Shown here: piece after piece, positions 34,584-42,333 of the stretch | How the letters are laid out: every line of letters starts with the position of its first letter | Position numbering within the stretch: position 1 is the stretch's first letter | The notes under the pieces: model-generated | What the model was told of the DNA's origin: nothing | The model's input: only the letters and a program-made list of their open reading frames with translations | The model's database searches: none | Position numbers and translations under genes: made by a program | Source: Thermotoga sp. | Lineage (GTDB): Bacteria; Thermotogota; Thermotogae; Mesoaciditogales; Mesoaciditogaceae | DNA: 43,744 bases | Direction of reading: 5' to 3' | NCBI GenBank assembly: GCA_020722015.1 | Contig: DYLQ01000013.1 | Span: 1-43,744 of the forward strand

Positions 34584-34609
34584 CAATTTAAAAGAAGGAG
34601 TTGATTATT

Positions 34610-35809
34610 TTGCCTTCGTTCGTTTATAAGGTTATAACGCCGGCCGGTAAAACTACTATGGGTCATCTTGAGGCTGAAAGCGATATAGGGCTTGTTAGCA
34701 AGCTTTTGCAGCAGGGGTATGTTGTGCTTGACGTAAAACCAACCAAAGAAAAGAAAAAACGTATTGTACTGCGTGCTAAACTTCCCGATCTTGTGCTTTT
34801 TACCCGCCAACTTGCGACGATGATGGATGCGGGTGTGAGAATAAAAGATGCGATCACTTTACTCTCAAAGCAAAACGCATTTACTCCGTCTTTCAGAAAA
34901 ATTCTTACAAATATATTGGTCGCTATAGATGGTGGACTTTCTTTGTCCGATGCTATAAATGAAACAGGTGCATTCGATCCTATCTTTGTAAACCTTGTTA
35001 GAGCAGGAGAAAGTGGTGGGGTACTCGATAACACGCTTAACAAAGTCTCGGATTTTTACGAACACGTTAAAAAGACCAGAGATGAAGTGAGATCTGCAAT
35101 GGCTTACCCGCTTTTTGTTTCTCTATTCGCGATTGTCATTCTGATGATCATAAGCCTTTTCATATTGCCAAGTTTGTTCAGGGCTTTTGGAAATGCAAAA
35201 GTTGGTGGTATAGTTGCATTGCTCATGAACACCAACAACTTTCTCGCTGATAATTGGCTTTATGCCGTACTTTTTATCGCTACCGTGCTTATATTTCTTG
35301 TTTATTTTTTCAGGACTTCTTACGGTGTGGCTACAAAAGAGTTTGTTGGAAATTTGATCCCGCCTATAAAAAGTTTGAAACATCTTCAAGATTCGTCGAA
35401 TTTCAGTAAAACTTTGGCAACTCTCATTTCAAGCGGTGTTTCCATAATAGAAGCTGTAGATATGGCAGCAAGATCGACTGGAAGTCGTAAACTTATAAAG
35501 AAAGTACCGGGAATGATCGATATTTTGAAAAATGGCGGAACTCTCAAGTTGGCTATGGAAAAGGCTAAGTTTTTTCCACAATTACTCGTTGAAATGGTTG
35601 GTACAGGTGAAGAGTCCGGAAAAGTAGATGAAATGCTTTCGAAAGTTGCTGATTTTTACGATCAGGAAGCTTCTGTCAAATTAAAACAACTTGTCTCGAT
35701 GATAGAGCCAGCCATGATAGCCATAATAGGGCTTTTTGTCGGCATGCTTGTTTTCAGTATATACCAGACCATGTTTAACCTTGAACAAGGTGTCGGTCAA
35801 CATTTCTGA
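34610..35809 (+). CDS. pilC: Type IV pilus/type II secretion inner-membrane platform protein (PilC/GspF)
   Basis: The 399-residue protein has the two repeated GspF domains: LPDLVLFTRQLATMMDAGV in the first and LQDSSNFSKTLATLISSGVS in the second. Membrane segments lie at about 167-190, 220-242 and 370-392. It anchors the pilus or pseudopilus machine and contacts the motor ATPase, which is not in this window. TTG at 34610 is 9 bases after AAGGAG; the earlier TTG at 34601 abuts it. The final bases overlap the pilin gene (TGATG). Confidence 0.93.
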   Translation: MPSFVYKVITPAGKTTMGHLEAESDIGLVSKLLQQGYVVLDVKPTKEKKKRIVLRAKLPDLVLFTRQLATMMDAGVRIKDAITLLSKQNAFTPSFRKILTNILVAIDGGLSLSDAINETGAFDPIFVNLVRAGESGGVLDNTLNKVSDFYEHVKKTRDEVRSAMAYPLFVSLFAIVILMIISLFILPSLFRAFGNAKVGGIVALLMNTNNFLADNWLYAVLFIATVLIFLVYFFRTSYGVATKEFVGNLIPPIKSLKHLQDSSNFSKTLATLISSGVSIIEAVDMAARSTGSRKLIKKVPGMIDILKNGGTLKLAMEKAKFFPQLLVEMVGTGEESGKVDEMLSKVADFYDQEASVKLKQLVSMIEPAMIAIIGLFVGMLVFSIYQTMFNLEQGVGQHF

Positions 35810-36216
35810 TGAAATCCGGATGGAGTTTCGTTGAACTTTTAGTTTTAATGGTTTTTTTGTCAATTTTTCTTTCGATAATTTTCCCTATTTCAAAAAGATG
35901 GATTGATGGAATGATCGTTCATTCGGAAATAAAAAAAATTGTTTCTTTCGTGAGGTACACTAAATATCTTTCTTACACTCTAAAAGATAGGGTTACAATA
36001 GATTTTTCAACAGGTATAAAGATTCTAAATTCAAAAATATCAAAGGAAAAAGGTAACTTGTCTTTTGTCAACGTCGGCAGATGTCAGACTTTTTCTTTTT
36101 CTGATGGGGTTCCATATGTGTCGGGTACGATGAAGGTTTATTTCAGAGGATCGAAAATTGCAACGATCACGGTTATGCCTGTTACTGGTCTTATCAAAGT
36201 TGAAGAGGGATGGTAA
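35809..36216 (+). CDS. Type IV pilin-like protein (pseudopilin)
   Basis: The 135-residue protein starts with the short leader MKSG, then WSFVELLVLMVFLSIFLSII: a prepilin peptidase site after Gly4, Glu at position +5 and a hydrophobic helix. The rest is mostly beta, as in GspH-like minor pilins. There is no disulfide pair. It is the only pilin in the operon, so a major pilin must be elsewhere. A prepilin peptidase gene is also absent here. Confidence 0.82.
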   Translation: MKSGWSFVELLVLMVFLSIFLSIIFPISKRWIDGMIVHSEIKKIVSFVRYTKYLSYTLKDRVTIDFSTGIKILNSKISKEKGNLSFVNVGRCQTFSFSDGVPYVSGTMKVYFRGSKIATITVMPVTGLIKVEEGW

Positions 36217-37154
36217 AGGTGAATTTGGGAATTTTTTCAACTTTTTACGTCGGAATAGACATTGGAAGATACAAAGTTGAAGGCACTAAGATCAAAAAAA
36301 GTGGAAAAAAGATACAATTTATAAATCAGGTTTCTGCACCATATGTGACTAAAGTTTTTAATGGTGATGAAATAATCAACGAAGATGAGATCATTTCATC
36401 GCTTACGAAGGTTGGAAGAGCACTCAAGGTTGATGTAGAGGATTTCATAGTAACTTCTATTTTCAGCGATAAAGTGCTTTTTAGACAGATGAAAATGCCA
36501 AAAATGACCAAAAAAAGTCAGATAATAGATGCCACTAAATATCAAATAGTGAAGGAACTTTCAATATCTCCTGCGAATATAACCGTGGACGTTGATGTTT
36601 TGAAAGAAACTGATGATTTAAGCGTTTCCGCTTTCATAGTGAGAAATGAAGATATTGAGAAATTCAAGAGTTTCTTTTTTAAAGCCAATCTTCCCATGCC
36701 AGATGTCTTAGATGCCGGTTATTTTAAGTTCAATTATCTTGTGGAAAAGAAAATTGGATCTGGAATTTCTCTTCTTATTTTTGAAGACAGTACATCCACA
36801 TATCTACAACTTTTTAAAGATGGTAGATTCATTGCGATTGACAGTGTAAACTTGGGCACTAACGAATTCGAAGAGAACGTTACATCTGAGAATATTCATT
36901 ATCTTCAACTTTCCGACGAAATTCGACGTCTTGCAAAGATCTTGATTTCGAGAACTTCTTTGCAAGAGCCTTTAAACAACGTTATATGTGCATCTGAAAA
37001 AATGGAATATGTTGGTGAATTGGTTAAAAATTTGAAAGAAGCGGATATGGAAAATGTAAGTTGTTATATCGATTTCATCGACTTAAAAAAGGATATTGCG
37101 GCAGGTGCTTACAGTTTGGCCATGAGAGGAGTAATCCAAGGTGCCAAGAGTTAA
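36210..37154 (+). CDS. pilM: PilM-like actin-fold protein
   Basis: The 314-residue protein has the ASKHA-type opening FYVGIDIGRYKVEGTKIKK and the arrangement of PilM, the cytoplasmic ATPase-fold protein that binds the PilN N-terminus. QMKMPKMTKKSQIIDATKYQI corresponds to the conserved middle segment. Its place right before PilN/O/P/Q-like genes supports the call. The start is uncertain: ATG 36210, GTG 36219 and TTG 36225 are all possible. Confidence 0.83.
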   Translation: MVKVNLGIFSTFYVGIDIGRYKVEGTKIKKSGKKIQFINQVSAPYVTKVFNGDEIINEDEIISSLTKVGRALKVDVEDFIVTSIFSDKVLFRQMKMPKMTKKSQIIDATKYQIVKELSISPANITVDVDVLKETDDLSVSAFIVRNEDIEKFKSFFFKANLPMPDVLDAGYFKFNYLVEKKIGSGISLLIFEDSTSTYLQLFKDGRFIAIDSVNLGTNEFEENVTSENIHYLQLSDEIRRLAKILISRTSLQEPLNNVICASEKMEYVGELVKNLKEADMENVSCYIDFIDLKKDIAAGAYSLAMRGVIQGAKS

Positions 37155-37710
37155 TTTTTACACAAAAAAGCGCAGAAAAATAAAATTATCTAAGTTCATA
37201 ATTCTTATGGTGATAATAATCGGTGTTGGTTTTTTATCTTACAAATTCATAGATATATTCGTAAGCGATCTTTACATCCATGCCATATCGGCCAACAGAG
37301 ATTTACTTGAAAATGCCGGAATATCCCTTTCAATGCCAAAAGATCAGATTCAAAGTAAACTTGGTGAGGTTATAAAAAACTATTCAAACAACCTCAACGT
37401 TCAATCTCAATTGCTTCTCAAAATGAAGAATGATTTGAATGGTATTAACAAATTTCATTCGTTGATCACCGTTCTCAATGAGATAAGCGGACAGGCAACT
37501 TTTACCGTTTCGACGTTTTCTTATGTGAGCAATTCATCAACTCTTTTAACTTTTAACCAGATATTGATGTCTGATTATTCAACAATTCCAGATCTTGAAA
37601 GGGAAATAGTTGAAAATTTGGGTTATACTTTTTCAATTTCCTATCCTCAATCTCAAAATTGGTACAAAGCTTACGAAGAAACTGTTTCAATAGGAGAAGC
37701 GAATGAATAG
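37141..37710 (+). CDS. pilN: PilN-like inner-membrane protein
   Basis: A short cytoplasmic start (MPRVNFYTKKRRK, compare MIRINLLP in PilN) precedes one membrane helix at about 19-41 and an outer part of about 145 residues with coiled-coil and beta segments. The similarity to known PilN is weak, so the call leans on layout and on position between PilM and PilO. GTG at 37141 overlaps pilM by 14 bases. Confidence 0.7.
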   Translation: MPRVNFYTKKRRKIKLSKFIILMVIIIGVGFLSYKFIDIFVSDLYIHAISANRDLLENAGISLSMPKDQIQSKLGEVIKNYSNNLNVQSQLLLKMKNDLNGINKFHSLITVLNEISGQATFTVSTFSYVSNSSTLLTFNQILMSDYSTIPDLEREIVENLGYTFSISYPQSQNWYKAYEETVSIGEANE

Positions 37711-38176
37711 GCGTTGGGCTATCATCGTAATTTTTGTTGCCATAATTCTGGTAGGCGGAGTTGATTTGATGGAATTACTTTCTTTTTCTGGCACTTTGAA
37801 TAAAACTGTGAGTTCCATTTCTAAATTTCAGACCCTCTACTCTCAAAATAAGGAGATGAAAAAACAACTTTCTGAGTATGGTGGTCTTTTAAATTTAAAA
37901 AGTATATCCGTCCAAGATTTAAAGAATACCTTACTGAAAATTGCTCCGGATGCAAATTTTAAAATATCCGGAGATACCATAACCCTTCAAAATTCGGTTA
38001 AAATAGACCCTTATGAACTTTTGAACCTGATGGCTTCTTATACAAATGTTGTCGTCTTAAAAATGCATTTCAGTTCCAATGCACCAATATATTACGAATA
38101 TAATGGCACAAATTACGGCAACTCGGGTTTGAGATATGTCATTGACAGTTTTGTCGTAACTGTTTACGGAGGATGA
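37703..38176 (+). CDS. pilO: PilO-like inner-membrane protein
   Basis: The 157-residue protein has a membrane helix at about 5-24, a coiled coil (FQTLYSQNKEMKKQLSEY) and a C-terminal part that could form the ferredoxin-like fold of PilO/GspM. It overlaps the PilN gene by 8 bases. The identification rests on layout and gene order, not on strong motifs. Confidence 0.66.
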   Translation: MNRRWAIIVIFVAIILVGGVDLMELLSFSGTLNKTVSSISKFQTLYSQNKEMKKQLSEYGGLLNLKSISVQDLKNTLLKIAPDANFKISGDTITLQNSVKIDPYELLNLMASYTNVVVLKMHFSSNAPIYYEYNGTNYGNSGLRYVIDSFVVTVYGG

Positions 38177-38177
38177 T

Positions 38178-38684
38178 ATGAAAAATATCGCCGTTATCAT
38201 TCTTATAATCTTTATAGTGGGGATCTTCGCGTACCTTGGGTATGTGCTTTTCTTTCCCAAAAATCAAAGTTATGAACGCCCACAAGCCGTTAACTTGACA
38301 GCCGAAGTTTCTTCTATACTTCAAAAGAAAGTTAACACCGAAAAAGTCAAACCAATCTCTCTTGATTTCAACATATTCTCACCGATTGTGATAAAATTAG
38401 ATCAAACCTCTTTCGATGAACTAATAAAAAATTCTTACCTTTCGACGGCCATAAACAAGGGAATGTACGTTGTCGGGGAGGCAAAAGGTATGACTAACAT
38501 GGTAACACTTTATGTAAATGGAAATCTTAAGACTTTGAACCTTATCGATGATTCCATTTTCGATTTTGAGGGGAAAAAATATCTTGTGACTTATATAGCG
38601 CCAGCTTTTGGGAGCGTGGTAATTATGGATTTGTCGACAGGAAATCTTTATGTTGTTAATTCAGAGGGTTTGATTTCAAGATGA
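38178..38684 (+). CDS. PilP/GspC-like protein
   Basis: The 168-residue protein has a membrane helix at about 3-26 and then an outer part. The last 70 residues (YVVGEAKGMTNMVTLYVN to TGNLYVVNSEGL) look like the small beta domain by which PilP or GspC binds the secretin. It is not a lipoprotein. Position before the secretin fits. It overlaps the secretin gene by 4 bases. Confidence 0.6.
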   Translation: MKNIAVIILIIFIVGIFAYLGYVLFFPKNQSYERPQAVNLTAEVSSILQKKVNTEKVKPISLDFNIFSPIVIKLDQTSFDELIKNSYLSTAINKGMYVVGEAKGMTNMVTLYVNGNLKTLNLIDDSIFDFEGKKYLVTYIAPAFGSVVIMDLSTGNLYVVNSEGLISR

Positions 38685-41509
38685 AAGGGGATAAATTTGT
38701 GAAATTTATAAGCTTTCTTTTGTTGATAGGGCTTATTTCTGTTTCTTTTGGATCGAATTTGATGAATATAACCTTTTCATCCACAAACAACGAGATAACC
38801 GCGTCTTTGCTTTTTGATTCCACACCTTCATGGAATCTTTCAAGTACACTTGGAAGCACTTTAAAACTTTCCTTTGTTGGAAAAGTCTCTCAGAAATTCT
38901 CCGGAAATATGTCATGGAATTCGGTGAACGTAACATCGTCTTCTATCGGAAATACATCGACCTTAACTTTTAATTTTCCTTTTATAGTAACTGCTTCTAC
39001 CAATCTGAGCGGAAATGTCTTGATGATCAGGTTTGCTACCTTGGGTCTTTCTCAAAATCTGCCATTTACCGGACCATCATCGAAAATATCGATAGATTTT
39101 TCGGGTCAGCAAGGTTCTAATTTCAGTCTTGCTATAAAATATCTTTCAAGAATTCTAAAAAGGAATTTGATAATAGATCCTTCAATAGCCAATAATCCCG
39201 TTAACATCACGCTCAATAACGTGACGCCGGCCGAAGCATTTTACGATATCATGATTTCTTCTCCTGGAATTGGTTATGCGATTTTGCCGGACGGTACCTA
39301 TTACATAGCTCCTGTTACAGAATTGATTCAAAATTTTGGAAAACTTGGCACCGGGACTTACAACAATTTCGTCAGTTTTTACAACTTATCGAACACAAAC
39401 ATAAGCGCACAGGATTTCAAGGCACTTGTAGAAAGTCTTTTTGGTCAAAACAAAGTTATAGGAAGTATAGGATCATATCAAATAGTCAACGCAACTTCTG
39501 AGGAACAAAAAACGATAGACAGCCTTATGGAATTTTTAAAAGAGAGTGAAAGTTTTAAAACGATAACATGGAATGATCAATCATCCGTTCAAGATCTCGA
39601 AAATTTGATAACTATGATGTATCCCAACACAAAGATCACGTATTTGAAGAGTTTTTCGACGATCGTCTTGAGTGGAAGTAAAAGTGACATCAAGAGTGCT
39701 TCTGAGATAATCTCCGAGTATCAAAAGATCATCGAAAACAGCGGTCCAAGTATTACAACATCTTTTGTCGTCCCACGTCAAAATATTCAGGCCTTTACCC
39801 AATTTGCGAAACAGTTTTCCGGAATAACGGTTTATGGATCTCCCACTTCTATGTCTTCTGAGGTTGTTTATCTTGCAATTGGTTCCAAAAATAGAATTTA
39901 CGATTTTTCAAAAGCAGTTGAATCGATAGCAAGTACACTTGTTAAAGTAACTCCTCAGATTTTACATTTCAACTTTGTTTCCGTTTCCAATTCAAATGTT
40001 TTTTCTGACATTTCAAAAGTCATATCGATCATGTATCCGGATGTTCATATGACGTATTTGCCCGCTCTCGACGAAGTACTTTTGTATGGGCCAGATGCTC
40101 AAATGGTGGATAACGTTACAAAATTCATAAACCAAAAGTCTTACTCTTCAACTTCCACCTCGATAACTTCGATTGTCACGATTAGAAGCGTGGATTACCA
40201 AACTGTCAAATCGATCATCGAGTCAAAAGGTTTGACCATGTTAGGCCCTTCAAAACCTTCAACATCTTCAACTGTCACGACCATTGCCGTAATTGGACCA
40301 AACAATAACGTGAACGATCTTATAGCCTTGCTCATGACATCTGGCCTTGTTCAAAGAAGTGTTCAAAACTTATCGTCAGAAGGCCAAATTGTTGAAGTGA
40401 AAAATGATTTAATAAACATAAATGTCAAAGACTACCCTCTTTACAGCGTGATTCAAAAAATCTACGGAGATCTTTCCAGAAATGTTGTCTTCATAGATCA
40501 GAACCTTCCAAATGTGACAATGAATTTATCCAACATAACGCTTGATCAATTTAATCAGGCCGTCGAAAATTCTTACGGTATATCATTTTCAGGATCAAGT
40601 GTTGTCTTTGTCAATAAAAGTACATCAGGCATCACAAAGGTCTACAATGCAAGTGGTAATGTGGATCAGATAATCGCACTCGCAAAATTCTTAGGTGCAA
40701 ATGTTTACTCTGATCCCAATACCGGCCTTATCATCGTGAATGGTTTAACTCCGTACTCTGAAAAACAACTCGATAGTGAGGTTCAAAGCCTTCTCAATTC
40801 GAGGAAAAATGTTCAAATAGAGGCTAAAATTTTGGATATAACGAACAACAACAACGTTAGCAACAGTTTAAACACAACGGTTATAACACCTCAACTTTTA
40901 TTCAATAACGGACTCACGCTCACATTTAACGTTTTAAGTGCCACAAATCCCTCCAATTTCATCTCAAATCTTGCAAATCAGGTGTTATCTTCAAATGCAA
41001 CGATAACGGCAAATCTTTCTCAAACAACCGGCAGTGGATCGGTATTATCTGCCCCAACTTTGATGACTCAAAGTGGCGAACCGGCCCAAATCACAGTTGG
41101 CGAGCAATATCCTTACCTTGTAACGACTGTCGTTAACAGTCAAACGGGCCAGACATCCCAGCAACTTCAATTCTTAACGACGGGAATCCAACTTAGCATA
41201 TTGCCCGTTGTGCTTCCAAATGGACAGATATCTTTGACCATAACGATACAAGTAAGCGATGCCGATTGGGGTCATGCCATTAACGGTGTACCCGCGGTTG
41301 TAACAAGAAATGCCAGTGTCAAAGTTGTCATACCAAGCGGTCAAACGCTTATGATAGGCGGACTTACCCAAAAACAAAGATCTGAAAATGTCACGAAGAT
41401 GCCTTTCTTGGGTGATCTTCCCTTTATAGGTCAATTCTTCACGTCGACAACTTTTCAGAATTCAACCGATAACCTTGATATACTTATAACAGCTTCGGTG
41501 GTGAAATGA
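38681..41509 (+). CDS. pilQ: Secretin (PilQ/GspD family) with two STN-like domains
   Basis: The 942-residue protein has a signal sequence, then an AMIN-like region (about 28-118), an STN/N0-like domain (about 136-212), several N1-like modules (about 225-557), a second STN-like domain (about 567-646), another N1 (about 653-705) and the secretin pore domain (about 709-940: VQIEAKILDI, GSGSVLSAPTLMTQSG, IPSGQTLMIGGL, MPFLGDLPFIGQFF). It forms the outer-envelope channel. ATG at 38681 overlaps the preceding gene; GTG at 38699 after AAAGGGG is also possible and keeps the signal peptide. Confidence 0.93.
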   Translation: MKGDKFVKFISFLLLIGLISVSFGSNLMNITFSSTNNEITASLLFDSTPSWNLSSTLGSTLKLSFVGKVSQKFSGNMSWNSVNVTSSSIGNTSTLTFNFPFIVTASTNLSGNVLMIRFATLGLSQNLPFTGPSSKISIDFSGQQGSNFSLAIKYLSRILKRNLIIDPSIANNPVNITLNNVTPAEAFYDIMISSPGIGYAILPDGTYYIAPVTELIQNFGKLGTGTYNNFVSFYNLSNTNISAQDFKALVESLFGQNKVIGSIGSYQIVNATSEEQKTIDSLMEFLKESESFKTITWNDQSSVQDLENLITMMYPNTKITYLKSFSTIVLSGSKSDIKSASEIISEYQKIIENSGPSITTSFVVPRQNIQAFTQFAKQFSGITVYGSPTSMSSEVVYLAIGSKNRIYDFSKAVESIASTLVKVTPQILHFNFVSVSNSNVFSDISKVISIMYPDVHMTYLPALDEVLLYGPDAQMVDNVTKFINQKSYSSTSTSITSIVTIRSVDYQTVKSIIESKGLTMLGPSKPSTSSTVTTIAVIGPNNNVNDLIALLMTSGLVQRSVQNLSSEGQIVEVKNDLININVKDYPLYSVIQKIYGDLSRNVVFIDQNLPNVTMNLSNITLDQFNQAVENSYGISFSGSSVVFVNKSTSGITKVYNASGNVDQIIALAKFLGANVYSDPNTGLIIVNGLTPYSEKQLDSEVQSLLNSRKNVQIEAKILDITNNNNVSNSLNTTVITPQLLFNNGLTLTFNVLSATNPSNFISNLANQVLSSNATITANLSQTTGSGSVLSAPTLMTQSGEPAQITVGEQYPYLVTTVVNSQTGQTSQQLQFLTTGIQLSILPVVLPNGQISLTITIQVSDADWGHAINGVPAVVTRNASVKVVIPSGQTLMIGGLTQKQRSENVTKMPFLGDLPFIGQFFTSTTFQNSTDNLDILITASVVK

Positions 41510-42333
41510 TGGAAAGGAAACCTATCGCTTCCGGAAGTTTTTACCCATCAGATCCGGAAGATTTAAGGGACTACGTGAGGGACCTTTTCACATCCAAAAG
41601 AGGGCCTGGAGAGTTACCAGATCCTGATGGGTTTAAAAAGAATGTAGGTCTTATAGTACCACACGCCGGCTATGTTTATTCTGGTACTACTGCTGCTTAC
41701 GCGTATTTGGCCGCTTCAGAATTCGGTAAACCTGATCTTGTCATCGTTATAGGGCCAAATCACACAGGATACGGTAAGCCTATTTCCGTGTGGCCAATGG
41801 GACTATGGAAAACACCACTTGGTGGTGTTAGCGTTGATGAAAGTACGGCAAATTCTCTTGTTGACACTTTTCCCGCATGTTCTCTCGATTATGAGGCACA
41901 CATTTTTGAACATTCAATAGAAGTGCAAATTCCATTTCTTCAATTTACCCTTGGAACTGGATTCAAAATACTTCCGATTTGCATGATGGATCAGAGAAAA
42001 GACATGGCGCGTGAGCTTGGAAATGCGCTAAGAAAAGTTTTGAGTGGAAAAAGGTTTTGGGTGGTAGCATCAACGGATCTAAACCACTACGAAGATCACG
42101 AAATTACCATATACAAAGATAAGTTGATAATCGACGCCGTTGCATCGAATAACATCGAAGAAATTTACGATATCGTAGACAAAGAACATGTGACCATGTG
42201 TGGTTTTGGTTGCGTAGCGACTTTATTGTCTATAGATATTGGAACGCCGAAAATTTTAAAACATTCAACAAGTGGAGAAATATCCGAAGGCTTTGAACAG
42301 GAAGTTGGTTACATGGCTGCATGTGTGTGCTAA
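41506..42333 (+). CDS. amrB: Memo-family protein (AmmeMemoRadiSam system protein B)
   Basis: The 275-residue protein has RKPIASGSFYPSDPEDL, VPHAGYVYSGTTA, IGPNHTGYG and HIFEHSIEVQIPFLQ, the landmarks of the Memo family with its conserved His residues. Related to metal dioxygenases; the reaction is unknown. Its usual partners (AMMECR1 and a radical SAM protein) are not adjacent. It overlaps the secretin stop by 4 bases and comF by 13. Confidence 0.93.
   Translation: MMERKPIASGSFYPSDPEDLRDYVRDLFTSKRGPGELPDPDGFKKNVGLIVPHAGYVYSGTTAAYAYLAASEFGKPDLVIVIGPNHTGYGKPISVWPMGLWKTPLGGVSVDESTANSLVDTFPACSLDYEAHIFEHSIEVQIPFLQFTLGTGFKILPICMMDQRKDMARELGNALRKVLSGKRFWVVASTDLNHYEDHEITIYKDKLIIDAVASNNIEEIYDIVDKEHVTMCGFGCVATLLSIDIGTPKILKHSTSGEISEGFEQEVGYMAACVC

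Follow-up and report, generated by a model that had tools for sequence, protein, structure and literature searches.

The secretin PilQ (757 aa) of Thermus thermophilus, a thermophile whose periplasm is wide, has one N0 domain, several stacked N1-type rings, and a barrel; its total of six rings is called unusual and places it among the largest characterized (PMC5745081, PMC4463427). PilQ of Neisseria meningitidis and of Pseudomonas combines an AMIN-like fold (B2 in Neisseria), N0, N1, and barrel, with one matched N0 stretch per chain and no long N1 array. HofQ, with a length of about 410 aa, has an N0-N1-barrel core and, judged from that length and from NCBIfam models, no AMIN domain, first N0, or array. 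Here we analyze a secretin gene in a stretch of 43,744 nucleotides (the window) from a bacterium of the Mesoaciditogaceae, phylum Thermotogota (contig DYLQ01000013.1 of GenBank assembly GCA_020722015.1). Its product shares with these proteins the N0, N1-type, and barrel parts and, with PilQ of Neisseria and Pseudomonas, the AMIN-like start, and unlike them has two N0 domains with six N1-type modules; relatives have up to 54 detected modules. Three pilQ loci are given in a genome paper on Thermotoga, whose text, as far as examined, says nothing of their domains (PMC5637354). Neither the double N0 nor the giant forms were found described in the literature searched, the scope of which did not extend to subscription journals.

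We read the protein, with a probability of about 0.7, as the outer-membrane secretin of a type IV pilus-like machine in which the copy number of the N1-type array follows the distance set by the envelope spacer Omp-alpha. The gene (38681-41509, + strand) is one uninterrupted frame of 942 codons, and residues 781-942 match the Pfam secretin domain PF00263 (E 3e-42; 144.5 bits, curated cut-off 27.5). The predicted order is AMIN-like fold, N0, five N1-type modules, second N0 (568-648), one N1, and barrel, with the parts listed here. X1 and X2 are the hhalign labels for the first and second extra modules of the sister genera.

38681..38752, + strand, residues 1-24: predicted signal peptide region (sequence; N-terminal helix 4-19 in the model)
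38753..39043, + strand, residues 25-121: AMIN-like beta sandwich (fold comparison)
39074..39334, + strand, residues 132-218: first N0/STN domain (PilQ N0 4ar0, Z 9.1)
39344..39547, + strand, residues 222-289: N1-type module a (N1 profile E 3.3e-6 at 239-288)
39548..39745, + strand, residues 290-355: N1-type module b, B-type (model topology; N1 profile E 6.3e-13)
39746..39955, + strand, residues 356-425: N1-type module c, A-type (model topology; hhalign match to X1, 87%)
39959..40150, + strand, residues 427-490: N1-type module d, B-type (model; N1 profile E 2.9e-7)
40157..40366, + strand, residues 493-562: N1-type module e, A-type (model; hhalign match to X1, 96.9%)
40382..40624, + strand, residues 568-648: second N0/STN domain (model, phylum profile, fold)
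40628..40804, + strand, residues 650-708: N1-type module f, adjoining the barrel (model; N1 profile E 0.0028)
40805..41506, + strand, residues 709-942: secretin barrel domain (PF00263, fold comparison)

AlphaFold, run on 53 sequences, gave a model of the window's protein (m42f0937568a1) with a mean predicted local distance difference test score (pLDDT) of 69.5 and a predicted template modeling score (pTM) of 0.30, so its single domains were used and their arrangement was not. It contains a beta sandwich at 27-120, N0 folds at 136-217 and 570-645 (in the latter, pLDDT blocks mostly of 76-90), an N1 at 651-704, and a barrel up to 942, with the stretch 723-785 under pLDDT 50. Segments 291-350, 357-416, 429-485, and 494-553 each have the order beta-alpha-beta-beta-alpha. 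Segment 223-288 was poorly modeled (223-275 under pLDDT 50) yet was matched by the N1 profile, which missed modules c and e. The best Foldseek match of the whole model was DR_0774 of Deinococcus radiodurans (8co1, 740 residues; E 4.9e-20).

The first-pass annotation had proposed two STN-like domains, at about 136-212 and 567-646, and both proved to be N0 domains. For the second, fold comparison matched residues 574-647 to the GspD N0 (4jtm; Z 8.9, rmsd 2.3, 72 aligned) and also to the InvG N0. In a search with a phylum-wide profile of this domain (53 members), the first eight PDB rows were all N0 domains of PilQ or HofQ, among them the Neisseria PilQ N0 (4ar0; E 1.1e-10) and the HofQ N0 (2y3m; E 3.8e-7), with one matched stretch per chain. 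Pfam STN was matched by 20 of the 53 members; the window's own segment had no Pfam match up to E 0.1. Residues 568-648 are thus an N0 domain by fold and by profile relation to solved N0 domains, and the outcome named beforehand as refuting the annotation, a fold at 567-646 unlike STN, did not arise. Residues 132-218 are an N0 by fold (128-225 against 4ar0: Z 9.1, rmsd 3.2, 90 aligned), with a weaker profile relation: the first-N0 profile (44 members) reached the MxiD N0 at E 1.2e-4 and the PilQ N0 at E 0.008, below three 14-residue matches to other chains. STN was found at E ≤ 0.1 in 24 of these 44 members (best 9.7e-8), and the window's segment matched PF21305 at E 2.8e-4, under that family's cut-off. 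The Z scores of the two copies (8.7-9.1) should be read beside those of 8.5-9.4 that residues 355-430 (module c) gave with unrelated small alpha/beta proteins in the same list. The two N0 profiles were iterated and cross-train, and aligning both by hhalign is the cleaner comparison; it gave 94.8% probability (E 4.9e-8). With profiles of nine family sequences only, hhalign did not detect this relation.

The window is not alone in having a double N0. We compared 58 secretin frames (59 matches in 62 loci, minus L035, a duplicate of L036, and L085, which is cut, plus the window's own), drawn from 58 of 103 Thermotogota genomes plus the window and L034, and thus covering part of the phylum. All 48 full-length frames, counted after leaving out 10 cut or internally starting ones, had at least two N0 domains by the iteratively trained profiles (two in 33, three in one, four in 12, and five in two). 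The two secretins with five (L067 and L068) have the first near the N terminus and four before the barrel.

An AMIN-like region ahead of the first N0, also part of the first annotation, was found at the level of fold. Residues 25-121 resemble AmiC (4bin; Z 12.2) and PilQ B2 (4aqz; Z 11.1), each with an rmsd of 2.5 over 97 aligned residues, and on this predicted fold we accept the domain as AMIN-like and as the AMIN-before-N0 arrangement of PilQ. The window's secretin has no Pfam AMIN match, a search of the PDB with a profile built on the nine family members gave nothing up to E 10, and the iterated profile (E < 0.001) found the domain, among the 58 frames, only in the nine family members. The AMIN-like domain of the Mesotoga protein L048 was accepted on the strand order of its model.

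As for the N1 modules, five do lie between the N0 copies, within the earlier count of four or five, and one more follows the second N0. In hhalign comparisons of Mesoaciditogaceae profiles, modules b, d, and X2 grouped together (b with d at 98.8%) and modules c, e, and X1 grouped via X1, so the array reads as A-B pairs; module f matched no other N1 module with nine-sequence profiles. In the six proteins of sister genera (L037-L042), an additional A-B pair of 150-154 aa sits at residue 491. Between L046 and L048, insertions of 267, 268, and 133 aa correspond to about four, four, and two modules. Gain or loss thus went by two or four modules at a time in the four cases compared. Of the two N1 profiles made, the first contracted to 38 columns and gave too low a count; the longer one that took its place went from 70 columns to 55. 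Because the 58 sequences themselves served to train both by iteration, the module counts describe the array and do not test it. Among control frames (E < 1), four had several matches, all of them pieces of split or cut secretins (L044 twice, L084, and L093). Ten had a single match each, including one in the split gene of L044, one in L092 (a cut secretin by its N0 match), and one abutting the L055 secretin. Shuffled secretins gave no N1-profile match at E < 1.

Array length varies strongly in the phylum. The window's organism belongs to the genus of Athalassotoga; two relatives were identified among named genomes, Athalassotoga saccharophila NAS-01 and a Mesoaciditoga metagenome-assembled genome, with 70% identity each. 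Secretins of this genus (938-942 aa) are among the shortest, those of the sister genera have 1,092-1,105 aa, L043 has 2,631 aa, and L046-L050, all from Mesotoga, have 3,888-4,560 aa in single open frames; the other full-length frames have 995-1,619 aa. N1-type modules detected number 43-54 in L046-L050 and 28 in L043. The chain of putative ring-forming modules differs about eight- to ninefold in length between relatives. The longest secretin chain matched in the PDB has 901 aa. For secretins outside Thermotogota, a 390-genome survey that included the phylum was used; the longest frame among the matches listed had 1,172 aa, a value that is no upper bound. An AlphaFold model of the first 1,190 residues of L048 (mean pLDDT 64, N0 region below 50) again had the beta-alpha-beta-beta-alpha order, and four of its five PDB matches at E ≤ 0.001 were secretins (best GspD, 5.4e-5), the fifth being an aspartate kinase. 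In Kosmotoga pacifica (G020), the giant gene (L044:4575-12430) is interrupted: a 982-bp stretch lies on the opposite strand, flanked by two exact 245-bp direct repeats, reflecting either an assembly error or a real inversion.

In T. maritima, Omp-alpha keeps the toga at a distance of about 50 nm from the cytoplasmic membrane, apart from ballooned regions; it consists of an SLH domain and a coiled coil of 316 residues (PMC3387000) and is described as a 50-nm rod (PMC5082667). We compared the N0-to-N0 span of the secretin with the stalk length of SLH proteins in 21 genomes, one from each of 21 genera and each with an uninterrupted secretin gene; A. saccharophila (G008) represented the window's genome as its genus mate. 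Stalks were measured in 60 SLH proteins. The SLH-nucleotidase L113 and two K. pacifica proteins were left out, the latter because the secretin gene is interrupted, and a second A. saccharophila Omp-alpha was added. L113, from Mesotoga prima (G024, strain MesG1.Ag.4.2), is an SLH domain fused to what we take, from its sequence, to be a nucleotidase-like protein. Other genomes that we take to be known species or genera are G090 (T. maritima), G018 (K. olearia), G069 (Fervidobacterium), and G080 (Thermosipho).

The N0-to-N0 span tends to follow the length of the spacer. Against the median stalk, the Spearman coefficient was 0.78 and phylogenetic contrasts, on a tree of the last 300 residues of the secretin, gave r 0.74 (p 1e-4; 0.72 as a partial correlation on genome size) and r 0.85 without K. 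olearia and M. prima (n = 19). When two further SLH frames (one each of G006 and G101) were added with stalks estimated from frame length, the values were 0.70 (Spearman) and r 0.72 (contrasts). After a coiled-coil filter, 19 of the 21 genomes kept a stalk, and the Spearman coefficient with the longest stalk was 0.90. As controls, the lengths of the proteins at the PilP, PilO, PilN, and PilM positions (20 of the 21 genomes) gave stalk contrasts of r -0.04, 0.03, 0.01, and 0.19, and the constant C-terminal part of the secretin gave r 0.21 (21 genomes). Separate pairs of genomes also agreed: A. saccharophila has two modules fewer than the sister genera and shorter stalks (165 and 227 versus 209-211 and 252-255 residues, homologues paired by eye), and G088 (span 503, stalks 223-246) compares likewise with G099 (span 729, stalks 318-332).

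Ring number was taken as span/73 + 2, with an assumed 3-4 nm per ring. The predicted stack is 24-32 nm in A. saccharophila, where the spacers are 25 and 34 nm, and 30-40 nm in the sister genera, where they are 31-38 nm. In T. maritima, stalks of 310-315 aa (46-47 nm) face about 13 rings (39-51 nm). At least one stalk falls within range in 16 of the 21 genomes. The window's protein would have about 8 rings if each N module forms one, and that of M. prima would have roughly 48. The proposal of the first-pass annotation, a very long tube suited to the space under the toga, is thus partly supported, gaining from the length-spacer correlation; the window's protein itself is no extreme, and the two Kosmotogaceae do not fit. 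The correlation is not a measurement of spanning, and both the stacking of the rings and their reach across the space under a toga are inferences.

Several observations weigh against this reading. The Thermus PilQ channel, about 35 nm in length, covers about half of a periplasm about 70 nm wide (PMC4463427), so spanning the full gap is not obligatory for a secretin. Our contrasts fell to r 0.55 (p 0.009) with the longest stalk and 0.73 with the shortest (0.55 and 0.65, respectively, with the G006 and G101 frames), on a midpoint-rooted tree built from 300 residues of the same protein. The length of the PilO-position protein goes with the span (contrasts r 0.49), and that of the PilP-position protein is negatively rank-correlated with span and stalk alike (about -0.4). 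Sub-threshold SLH proteins may be missed, as was the one added in A. saccharophila. Of 58 stalks, 34 lie inside the assumed range; G100, G101, and G006 are outside it, and in the Fervidobacterium group one stalk of G069 and one of G076 are far longer (140 and 111 nm). The predicted stacks of the two Kosmotogaceae exceed the spacer 1.7- to 2.8-fold, with 93-124 nm against 48-55 nm in K. olearia and 145-193 nm against 70-72 nm in M. prima. Ballooned envelopes, a layer made of two modules, or an array that does not stack might each account for this excess. Moreover, the AlphaFold model is of a single chain with the low pTM given above, and the NCBIfam scores for PilQ (TIGR02515, 112.4 bits; cut-off 284.35) and GspD (TIGR02517, 117.5 bits; cut-off 351.35) are both far below cut-off.

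Residues 568-942 (N0-N1-barrel, like the core of HofQ) are the part common to orthologues across the phylum, and the AMIN-like domain, another N0, and the tandem N1-type array make up an extension ahead of it. In the mechanism that we propose, copies of the chain would assemble, as expected of secretins (rings of 12-19 subunits), with their barrels forming a ring in the outer membrane, each N module would add one ring to a channel reaching towards the inner-membrane platform, and a pilus or DNA might pass through it. The PilP-position protein would be the contact of the first N0, and peptidoglycan a possible ligand of the AMIN-like domain. The copy number of the array would be the adjustable part, tuned by gain or loss of module pairs, so that channel length would follow the distance from outer membrane to cell wall set by Omp-alpha. 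The pattern bears on how a trans-envelope machine keeps its reach as envelope width changes: a coiled-coil spacer and a secretin that may stack rings, although unrelated, tend to change length together over the phylum. With such a link, envelope width could be read from sequence, and tomography could test a ruler model. A stronger version, to which we give somewhat less than even odds, is that N-module number in Thermotogota is an evolved molecular ruler, stepped by pairs to match the spacer, with stacks of at least 100 nm in Kosmotogaceae. To our knowledge, ring stacks of 100 nm and longer would exceed any known secretin channel.

Two other explanations of array length were weighed. The protein could be an ordinary pilus secretin in which tandem duplication lets the number of modules drift neutrally, the link to the spacer reflecting lineage history. 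Tandem repeats duplicate easily, few lineages are independent, the Mesotoga and Kosmotoga arrays are far longer than their spacers, and the fall of the contrasts with the longest stalk points the same way. We nevertheless judge drift unlikely, as the tree contrasts persist with the median stalk, separate pairs such as G088 and G099 agree, the neighboring genes do not follow the stalk in contrasts, and four of five Mesotoga arrays (L047-L050) are of nearly equal length at 74-94% identity. Alternatively, the array may be a flexible string, a bundle folded around the machine, or a layered structure with two modules per layer, the long forms serving as tether or scaffold. This would relieve the Kosmotogaceae excess, which arises at one ring per module; the A-B alternation would permit two modules per layer, and the AMIN-like end could tether to peptidoglycan. 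Such an arrangement seems doubtful, if a little less so than drift, since one ring per module agrees in 16 of 21 genomes and the N1 domains of Thermus PilQ stack as rings (PMC5745081).

The secretin gene lies in a type IV pilus-like operon, a candidate for the pilMNOP type, and the following genes were annotated upstream of it.

34601..35809, + strand: PilC/GspF-like inner-membrane platform protein (PF00482 E 8.9e-58; TIGR02120 E 7.9e-80, under cut-off)
35809..36216, + strand: pilin-like protein (NF040982 ComGD E 1.6e-5, under cut-off)
36210..37154, + strand: PilM-like protein (TIGR01175 E 6.7e-8, under cut-off)
37141..37710, + strand: PilN-position protein (gene order only)
37703..38176, + strand: PilO-position protein (gene order only)
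38178..38684, + strand: PilP-position protein (gene order only)

The PilC match is strong and the PilM match weak, both under the NCBIfam cut-offs, and the PilN-, PilO-, and PilP-position proteins had no relevant Pfam or NCBIfam match. In the sister-genus locus L037, all six upstream genes and the next two downstream match the window's. In L043, L044, L046-L048, and L073, PilC, PilM, and the next downstream genes match, and small genes fill the places between; the PilN gene also matches in L044, L046, and L073. The giant secretin genes therefore occupy the same operon position as the window's. We class the protein as a secretin on PF00263 and, from its context and fold, as one of pilus type; it falls outside the scored models for PilQ and GspD. 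A GspD-like secretin of a type II system exporting toga enzymes was also considered: the GspD model covers residues 152-941 and slightly outscores the PilQ model, and the best NCBIfam score of the PilC neighbor is for GspF. On the evidence of the secretin and its operon neighbors, we hold this to be quite improbable, because a separate PilM-like gene is present, the second N0 is closest to the N0 of PilQ and HofQ, and the AMIN-like start is as in PilQ. In type II systems, the counterpart of PilM is part of GspL. The gene after the secretin (41506-42333), presumably Memo-like, was kept at that place in all seven other long-secretin loci compared.

Outside these loci, the secretin query P0001 matched 88 of the 103 Thermotogota genomes, short secretins included. 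In family f7 (G034-G054, 21 genomes), probably the Petrotogaceae, no long orthologue was seen, and P0001 matched at E ≤ 0.001 in 11 of 21 (best 7.6e-9). One genome of the window's genus (G010, 96% complete) had no PF00263 or T2SSF match and only a weak P0001 match (3.2e-5), and may have lost the pilus system; an Omp-alpha homologue is present. In a plasmid search, none of 302 records covered 80% of the query, and the five matches listed are confined to the barrel region. Short secretins of 379-387 aa occur at L096:7377-8531, L097:8211-9350, and L099:7308-8471, with neighbors that match none of the window's operon genes; the two scanned have barrel matches and STN matches under cut-off. Each comes after a protein of 521-545 aa with weak to moderate Ig-like matches, and in L096 and L097 the short secretin is followed by a protein with a sub-cut-off STN match.

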